Source: Hydrogenophilales bacterium CG_4_10_14_3_um_filter_63_21
GTDB taxonomy: Bacteria > Pseudomonadota > Gammaproteobacteria > Burkholderiales > Thiobacillaceae
DNA length: 37,288 bases
Direction of reading: 5' to 3'
Assembly: GCA_002784045.1 (NCBI GenBank)
Contig: PFJX01000044.1
Span: forward strand, 1-37,288
Below, one piece after another: positions 35,240-36,780 of this stretch. Numbering within the stretch: the stretch's first letter is position 1; each line of letters opens with the position of its first letter. Both the position numbers and the translations under genes were made by a program. The notes under the pieces were generated by a model. That model was not told where the DNA came from, did not search any database, and saw only the letters and a program-made list of their open reading frames with translations.

Positions 35240-35289
35240 GTTCAAATATTCCAGGGCGCTGTTTTGCGCGTCAGCTTGATCTCTCTATT

Positions 35290-36780
35290 ATGCGGGCCAT
35301 GGCCCATTTCCTCCCCCTCTCCCGCGTCGCCCGCCTGGTGGGCGAATCCCGCACGGTCATCCAGCGCATGATCCATGATGGCAAGCTGTCCACGTTCGAC
35401 GGCATGGTGGACATGAACGAACTTCTGCGTGTGTTCCCCGATGTGCAATGGGAGGACAACGGCGAATTCAAACGGGTCGAAGAGATCAAGGCCAAGGCCT
35501 TTGCCCGTCGCGTCTACGAACATGCCCTGCCGGACAAGGAAGTGCTGGCCGAGCGGCTGTTCGAGATGGGCCGCGAATTCGCCGCCGCCAAGACCCTGTT
35601 GCTGCACTACGACGAGGTGCTGCGTTTCCTCGACGACAAACTGGACGATGTCACGGAGGCGGGTGCGGGGGTTGCCAACCCAGCCGTCCAGCAGGCGGTC
35701 GTCGATCTCAAACAATGGCTGAGACAGGAACTTGAAGCGCGCCCCAAGGACACCGAGCGCGCCCAGTCCCTGCTGGCCCAGGAAAATGTGATGCGCATCA
35801 TGTCCGCTCAGGTAACGGTTCTCCCAGCAGGCCACGAATTCTCCGTGGAAGGCAACGACACCCTGCTGGAAGCGGCCCTGCGCGCCGGTATCCCGCTTAA
35901 TTACGGATGCAGCAACGGCAATTGCGGCGAGTGCAAGGCACGCCTGGTATCCGGCCAGGTCAAGAAAGTGCATCCACACGACTTCGTGCTCAAGGATGCG
36001 GAAAAGGCTGACGGCGCCTTCCTGCTTTGTTCCTACACGGCGGTCAACGATGTGGTGGTGGAAGCCGGCGTTTCCGGCGCCGATGACATCCCGCTGCAGG
36101 ACATTTCCACCCGGGTGAAGGCGGTAGAAATGCTCAACGACCGCATCGCCGCCCTGCACCTCACCGCGCCGCGCAGCCAGCGGCTGCATTTCCTCGCTGG
36201 ACAGCGGGTGACGCTGACCGCCGATGGCGTCAGCGGTGAGTATTACGTGGCGAGCTGCCCGTGCGAGGAGCGCCACATCGAACTGCATATCCGCCGCGAC
36301 AACCGCCCCTTCTCGCGCCATGCCCTCGCTGACCTGGCCAAGGAAGACGTGGTGCGCGTCGACGGCCCGCATGGCCGCTTCGTGATGAAACTGGATTCAC
36401 GCCGGCCGGTGATTTTCGTCGCCTGGGAAGACGGCTTCGCGCCGATCAAGAGCCTGGTGCAGCACGCCATGAGCCTGGAAATCGCCGAATCCATGAGCCT
36501 CTACTGGGTGGCTGGCGCCGTTGCCGACAGCGTCGGCCACTATCAGGAAAACCTCTGCCGCGCCTGGGCCGATGCCCTCGACGATTTCACCTACCAGGCG
36601 CTGGATACCGCCGCCGGCACCACGGCCGCCATTGCCGAATCCATCCTCGCCCAACACCCCGATCTGTATCGCGCCGACATCTATGCCGCCGGCCCCCACG
36701 CCTTCCTGCAAGCCCTGCAAGCCGGGGCGCTGGCGCGCGGCCTGTCGCCGTTGGGCTGGCACGGGGAGACGATCGAGTAG
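35290..36780 (+). CDS. HTH-like/2Fe-2S ferredoxin/degenerate reductase fusion protein
   Basis: Three parts, numbered from ATG 35299. Residues about 1-150 begin with a helix-turn-helix-like segment (SRVARLVGESRTVIQRMIHD, MVDMNELLRVFP) and a helical region. A plant-type 2Fe-2S ferredoxin domain (about 170-255) has ligands Cys204, Cys209, Cys212 and Cys244 with C-x4-C-x2-C spacing. An FAD/NAD reductase-like module follows (about 265-493). In it the RxYS FAD motif is GEYY (near 313), and the GGTG NAD loop is replaced in AWEDGFAPIKS (near 375). Two starts are possible, ATG 35290 or 35299; neither has a ribosome site. Function unknown; a redox-sensing regulator or an electron-transfer protein is possible. 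Confidence 0.82.
   Translation: MRAMAHFLPLSRVARLVGESRTVIQRMIHDGKLSTFDGMVDMNELLRVFPDVQWEDNGEFKRVEEIKAKAFARRVYEHALPDKEVLAERLFEMGREFAAAKTLLLHYDEVLRFLDDKLDDVTEAGAGVANPAVQQAVVDLKQWLRQELEARPKDTERAQSLLAQENVMRIMSAQVTVLPAGHEFSVEGNDTLLEAALRAGIPLNYGCSNGNCGECKARLVSGQVKKVHPHDFVLKDAEKADGAFLLCSYTAVNDVVVEAGVSGADDIPLQDISTRVKAVEMLNDRIAALHLTAPRSQRLHFLAGQRVTLTADGVSGEYYVASCPCEERHIELHIRRDNRPFSRHALADLAKEDVVRVDGPHGRFVMKLDSRRPVIFVAWEDGFAPIKSLVQHAMSLEIAESMSLYWVAGAVADSVGHYQENLCRAWADALDDFTYQALDTAAGTTAAIAESILAQHPDLYRADIYAAGPHAFLQALQAGALARGLSPLGWHGETIE

Follow-up and report, generated by a model that had tools for sequence, protein, structure and literature searches.

In SoxR, a MerR protein with a 2Fe–2S cluster, the cluster is held by a cysteine motif of its own in the MerR C terminus. 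The BenC, T4moF and GcoB reductases (PDB 1krh, 4wqm and 5ogx) are built from a ferredoxin domain, an FAD-binding domain and an NAD-binding fold, in this order. For sulfur oxidizers, excerpts of the literature describe Hyphomicrobium SoxR (of the ArsR type) and sHdrR as sulfane-sulfur-responsive repressors of sulfur oxidation (PMC10451225 and PMC12423496) and DsrL as a redox protein tied to DsrAB (PMC7596348), and portray the sensing of inorganic sulfur by these bacteria as little known (PMC10451225). A search of the open-licence literature returned no paper on a fusion such as the one encoded in the window (the whole 37,288-nucleotide stretch of DNA that was analysed), in which a helix–turn–helix (HTH)-like head precedes a ferredoxin and a reductase-like body. 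The protein belongs to a subfamily that, as newly seen here, tracks dissimilatory sulfite reductase near-strictly.

The gene occupies a single open frame of the forward strand (35299–36780, stop codon included), encodes 493 amino acids and has full-length homologues. A preliminary description of this DNA had the frame begin at 35290; conservation places the start at the ATG at 35299, where the homologues begin in our alignments, and the upstream ATG overlaps a TATTAT box (35286–35291). Numbered from 35299, the positions that it gave for the cluster cysteines (C204, C209, C212 and C244), for GEYY (313–316) and for WEDG (376–379) are exact, and its account of an HTH-like N terminus, a complete 2Fe–2S site and a reductase-like C terminus in one protein is borne out by the open frame, Pfam and conservation. 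Alignments begin at or before residue 6 in 61 of 66 related loci. A chance frame and an assembly error or sequencing slip were considered and ruled out, as the gene is conserved across many genomes.

A winged HTH-like segment is predicted for residues 1–47 (35299–35439) from AlphaFold2, Foldseek, alignments and Pfam HTH_17 matches among subfamily members; L13, R18, Q22, G35, L42 and P47 are invariant in this segment of the aligned members. AlphaFold2 then places a helical region (residues 54–168; 35458–35802) that includes one helix of 43–44 residues (80–122/123). The plant-type 2Fe–2S ferredoxin domain follows (residues 170–256; 35806–36066; Pfam Fer2, 2.5e-13) and contains the four cysteines. 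Next comes an FAD-binding-domain fold that lacks the FAD motif (residues 273–361; 36115–36381; FAD_binding_6, 7.9e-6, and Foldseek). In the alignment of relatives, GEYY (36235–36246) stands in place of RxYS, and a nearby Cys-Pro-Cys (residues 320–322; 36256–36264) holds the two cysteines that define the subfamily. The chain ends in an NAD-binding-domain fold (residues 366–493; 36394–36777; NAD_binding_1, 1.8e-4), for which all ten-residue blocks of the AlphaFold2 model score at least 86 and in which WEDG (36424–36435) replaces the GGTG loop of the aligned relatives. For the full protein, the model has a mean pLDDT of 84.3 and a pTM of 0.63.

The body resembles GcoB, T4moF and BenC in sequence and in fold: these reductases share its domain order and are its best matches, and the predicted model matches 5ogx, a BenC-type reductase fold, at a Foldseek E value of 1.4e-24. 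Compared with them, the fusion protein has lost RxYS and mostly GTG, and has gained the cysteine pair, the HTH and the coil. It scores 102 bits against the BenC family, for which the cut-off is 430, and each of its NCBIfam matches falls below the cut-off. With the flavin motif and nucleotide loop both absent, the window protein is, by its motifs, not a BenC-type reductase; its own genome additionally encodes an ordinary reductase (L002), which has RxFS and GGTG.

From 199 matched stretches, 155 were left after the removal of copies and 145 were readable at both motifs, comprising 111 proteins with cysteines at 320 and 322 and 34 without. In the alignment, none of the 111 has RxYS (its first arginine alone occurs in 8) and one has GTG, whereas RxYS is found in 34 of the 34 ordinary reductases, GTG in 33 and the cysteine pair in none; the 111 were defined by this pair and so all have it, and the residue between the two cysteines is a serine in G067. 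Thirteen further subfamily genomes all have the cysteine pair and lack RxYS (0/13). The loop, read in these genomes other than G161, G187 and G257, is SGTG in G124, G162, G197 and G227, so that together with G287, which is one of the 111, the members that keep GTG are five genomes, all of family f38. In an 84-row maximum-likelihood tree, a single branch (support 100/99) separates all Cys-pair rows from the ordinary reductases. The preliminary description had set against its own reading homologues with intact motifs throughout the same orthologous group; the 34 ordinary reductases fall across that branch. To judge from motifs and alignment, the window protein is therefore a member of a subfamily and not a lone decayed copy. 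The loss of both motifs is conserved across this subfamily, apart from the loop in f38; the letters GEYY and WEDG, the conservation of which had been proposed as a check, are not.

None of the members read retains the flavin motif, and most have lost the nucleotide loop as well. As far as sequence can tell, this supports the earlier proposal that the reductase part has ceased to be a standard FAD/NADH enzyme, and extends it to the whole subfamily. The body could still be an oxidoreductase that binds nucleotide or flavin in an altered manner, as its C-terminal fold is confidently predicted, the G-F-A-P-I-K-S that follows the loop is mostly retained, and a first arginine or a GTG survives in the few members noted above. 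We consider this very improbable given the complete absence of RxYS from the 111, in which the tyrosine of GQY and the glycine and arginine of the LYWGGR strand are also mostly lost. The same set has gained Q267 (in all), N418, R421, D425 and D428, and the four cluster cysteines are present in 93 of 93 long and 14 of 14 short rows aligned. A functionless, decaying pseudo-enzyme would account for the lost cofactor motifs, for an internal deletion in G241 and for the split frames of L096 (see below), but is exceedingly improbable in view of the many invariant columns, the new invariant residues and the retention of the subfamily in 14 of the 16 dsrA-bearing families of the order sample.

The order sample comprises 300 genomes, of which 64 have a dsrA-profile match (61 over the cut-off) and 142 have soxB. 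Subfamily members were counted in 55 genomes (56 matches at E ≤ 1e-60 minus G209, an ordinary reductase; the cysteine pair was read in all 55), and every one of the 55 has dsrA. Screening the 236 dsrA-negative genomes with the window protein at the same threshold gave a single match, the ordinary reductase of G209, and yielded no member, including none in the 86 that are soxB-positive, and six of the eight genomes that are dsrA-positive and soxB-negative have one. Nine dsrA genomes were missed at first and were re-screened at 1e-10, the top match and most of the remaining ones being read. This added a short Cys-pair protein in G266, bringing the count to 56 of 64 dsrA genomes, and showed only ordinary-type reductases among the matches read in the other eight (G033, G034, G037, G045, G132, G256, G277 and G286; two weak matches in G132 were left out). 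Fisher's test gives p = 4e-51 for the association, a value that ignores kinship. In a partial control, limited to the listed genomes of families that contain both kinds (f11, f20, f21, f35, f39, f48 and f49), a member occurs in 12 of 17 dsrA-positive and 0 of 24 dsrA-negative genomes; family f35 alone has none in its three dsrA-positive genomes.

The association recurs in part in another class. Of the 101 genomes in the order to which G531 belongs, 7 encode a member at E ≤ 1e-80, and all 7 are among the 19 with a dsrA-profile match, although the match reaches only about 1e-25 in G699 and G739, a strength like that of dsrB; the remaining 12 dsrA-profile genomes are without a member at this threshold. 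Twenty genomes were reached through named loci; 19 of these have a Cys-pair protein, and a dsrA-profile match was found in 15 of the 20 (14 over the cut-off). L040, L082, L086 and L090 have a member and no dsrA match, and all are metagenome bins. A phylum sample of 398 genomes contributed only rows with loci that were read, and the co-occurrence counts come from the other samples. Because its relatives occur almost only in Dsr bacteria, the protein is probably an undescribed part of the Dsr sulfur pathway. One record with the gene, titled Bordetella parapertussis (L075), is a metagenome bin, and its title looks misassigned.

Linkage to dsr genes varies between lineages. In 11 of the 55 genomes (G083, G264, G201, G014, G243, G273, G190, G221, G241, G271 and G103), no more than 15 kb separates the fusion gene from dsrA. 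It is a member of a dsr operon only in G221 and G190; elsewhere it is near or unlinked. In G221, a single strand carries dsrA, B, E, F, H, C, M and K, a DsrL-like flavoprotein, a 4Fe–4S protein, NrfD-type, CobB-type and DUF4202 genes, cysG and then the fusion gene, behind which more genes follow on the same strand. G190 has a similar order followed by a CDGSH protein (assigned by eye save for dsrA and the CDGSH gene). The fusion gene is located between dsr and sox genes in G083 and precedes a DsrL-like gene in G531, where dsrA is on another contig. The genome of the window has two dsrA genes, both on contigs other than that of the fusion gene. DsrEFH is associated with the oxidative type in excerpts of PMC11406059, and its presence points to an oxidative Dsr type, most likely reverse and sulfur-oxidizing. 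A small DUF6967 protein adjoins dsrA in both clusters (L203:9927–10172 and L210:11568–11825). A gene for a pyridine nucleotide-disulfide oxidoreductase (L083:4601–5998; SthA-like by eye) immediately precedes the fusion gene in Halochromatium and its relatives.

These neighbourhoods bear on two other functions. The protein may act within the Dsr machinery in electron transfer or as a scaffold, with the ferredoxin linking DsrAB/DsrL, DsrMK or another donor to an acceptor, the pseudo-reductase docking and the head binding a protein or aiding dimerization. Its position among redox subunits in the G221 operon, the adjoining DsrL-like gene in G531, the invariant ferredoxin site and the absence of the HTH from some early-branching and some derived members are all consistent with this, and we treat it as a serious rival that is possible but doubtful, since the G221 operon already has a DsrL-like gene and the HTH-like head is present in 52 of the 55 subfamily genomes of the order sample, across 13 families. 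A function in sulfur relay or persulfide handling, in which DsrEFH/DsrC or TusA-like carriers hand sulfane sulfur to the cysteine pair and the cluster reduces or oxidizes it, would fit the contrast in these cysteines between the 111 proteins so defined and the 34 ordinary ones. It would also fit the DsrC-like genes near the fusion gene in L203 (10873–11202, a copy extra to the operon dsrC) and L207 (5308–5661), a neighbour that the four clustered loci of the neighbourhood comparison have in common. This function is improbable: neither Pfam nor NCBIfam gives the window protein a sulfurtransferase family match, and the HTH would be left unexplained.

The head itself is predicted to be a MerR/excisionase-like winged helix followed by a long coil, with weak scores. 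Its Pfam matches in the window protein are below the cut-off (Phage_Cox, 0.0043; HTH_17, 0.14, at 12.9–15.9 bits against a cut-off of 27); among 43 members compared with Pfam at E ≤ 0.05, HTH_17 was found in 17 and Phage_Cox in 9. Modelled alone, the N-terminal 165 residues have a pLDDT of 76.8 and a pTM of 0.38. MerR regulators, Pukovnik Xis (TMt 0.69) and BldC (TMt 0.70) are near the top of the Foldseek matches of this model; chains of Xis and BldC range from 0.64 to 0.70 in TMt, with E values of 0.098, the best obtained, or worse. MerR, Xis, BldC, GlnR or Par types make up 36 of the best 50 rows, judged from titles and, for some structures, from the known type of the protein. The structural comparison with MerR and excisionase folds that had been suggested returned a predicted likeness for residues 1–47 and the long helix that follows, at scores that are weak; the fusion differs from MerR, excisionase and BldC proteins in having a head under Pfam cut-offs that is attached to a ferredoxin–reductase body. 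A profile of the N terminus matched in 22 of 150 genomes, every time within a frame of fusion length, and in the order sample the N terminus lies inside the match in 52 of 300 genomes (the 55 subfamily genomes minus G078, G145 and G241).

Headless Cys-pair proteins also exist, partly alongside the long form in the same genomes. Of the 111 proteins, 92 have the HTH and 19 lack it within the stretch compared; these 19 short rows include contig-end cases (L049, L056, L076 and L077) and L096, leaving 14 true short forms, among them G241 with its internal deletion. In L096 (5995–7474), the HTH-coil and the ferredoxin–pseudoreductase body are two adjacent open frames, which represent either a split gene or a two-gene state that preceded the fusion; it is a long branch of odd composition. 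With the tree rooted on the branch that separates ordinary from Cys-pair proteins, the earliest group (98/67) contains the short forms of f15 and f34 together with L096, the second contains those of the other class (the remainder joins at 88/92), and the long forms branch next (84/78), with later loss of the head in f50 and G241. Given the early short forms and the two frames of L096, the head was either gained once, late, or lost several times. Headless sequences say that the module can presumably do something without DNA. Several short forms (L147, L149, L150, L152 and L153) have scattered neighbours that are not dsr genes (metH, DJ-1-like and glutaredoxin-like, by eye).

We also searched for a DNA target. 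The preliminary description had pointed to the intergenic region between recJ and the fusion gene, in which comparison by eye of upstream regions from the same genus reveals a conserved element, AATATT-N7-GCTGTTTTG (35245–35266). Action on this region is unsupported so far: AATATT-N7-GCTGTTTKG matches the genome perfectly at this one site, two others occurring at two mismatches, and recJ accompanies the gene in 45 of the 66 loci, none of them among the gammaproteobacterial L080–L084, L086–L091, L094 and L096. A general recJ-linked function was rejected on the same count and on the other neighbours found elsewhere. In the Thiobacillus group (L010 and L057–L073), a different inverted repeat, GAATC...GATTC, is visible by eye upstream of the gene in several loci.

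When up to one mismatch is allowed, a palindrome, TACCC-N4-GGGTA, occurs upstream of dsrA in 25 of the 64 regions of 300 bases taken from the order and gammaproteobacterial sets. It does not track the HTH form: at this stringency it is present in 19 of the 52 regions that have this form and in 6 of the 12 that lack it. In the other class it is absent from all 16 dsrA upstream regions, including the three that have the HTH form. Scored over 400 bases with another consensus, 17 of 61 HTH regions reach at least 10 compared with 1 of 24 regions without the HTH, 13 of these 24 being from the other class, in which the palindrome is absent. Palindrome scoring leaves out L222 and L227, for which a dsrA start could not be located, and the 300-base scoring also leaves out second dsrA copies. 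At one mismatch, CTACCC-N4-GGGTAG occurs 8 times a strand in the genome of the window, compared with 14 for a reversed control. The copy upstream of dsrA in this genome (L213, C33:2385–2400) is its sole perfect CTACCC-N4-GGGTAG. As the palindrome occurs both with and without the HTH form, it lends no support to the fusion protein as its reader.

SoxR shares with the fusion protein the idea of a MerR-like head combined with a 2Fe–2S cluster (2zhg, Foldseek rank 39, E 0.76); the cluster cysteines of the fusion protein lie in a separate plant-type Fer2 domain and, by this layout, the window protein is not SoxR. Hyphomicrobium SoxR and sHdrR differ in being of the ArsR type and in having been studied with shdr and sox rather than dsr, and the excerpts of the two papers mention no Fe–S cluster. 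DsrL differs in being a 4Fe–4S flavoprotein whose FAD and NAD(P) domains belong to another type, according to domain matches and excerpts of PMC7596348. The protein may act in the manner of Fe–S or sulfane-sulfur regulators, of which SoxR and sHdrR are examples, but is not itself one of them.

We tentatively favour, at somewhat less than an even chance, a Dsr-specific regulator of Fe–S redox or sulfur state with putative DNA binding. The co-occurrence with dsrA, the linkage to dsr genes, the well-supported branch and an N-terminal profile found only in fusion-length frames argue for it; the weak HTH scores, a palindrome that does not follow the HTH, the early headless forms, dsrA genomes without a member, members without dsrA and the unlinked gene of this genome argue against it. 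Such an accessory protein would be specific to dissimilatory sulfite reductase, most likely of the reverse, sulfur-oxidizing kind, and would derive from a ferredoxin reductase in which the flavin motif has been lost and, for most members, the NAD(P) loop as well. The 2Fe–2S cluster would be present and no flavin bound, with a Cys-Pro-Cys dithiol replacing residues beside the flavin motif. Cluster and dithiol would change redox or sulfane-sulfur state with Dsr flux, and the change would be relayed to a winged-helix head that may bind DNA as a dimer through its long helix, tuning the transcription of sulfur-oxidation genes. The preliminary description, which had suggested that the cluster redox state may be coupled to DNA binding or to a partner, stands in its reductase loss and predicted HTH; the tie to dsr, the invariant cysteine pair and the headless forms were absent from it.

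In its most specific form, which we think rather unlikely as a whole, the protein would be a dedicated regulator of Dsr oxidation in Proteobacteria: a retired reductase whose flavin pocket has been refitted with Cys-Pro-Cys and senses sulfane sulfur or redox state together with the 2Fe–2S cluster, the MerR-like head reporting to promoters. As a near-constant companion of dsrA, the gene offers a genetic handle on Dsr-type oxidizers and a possible marker of the pathway, and the subfamily provides an example of an enzyme body that has been turned into a likely sensor.
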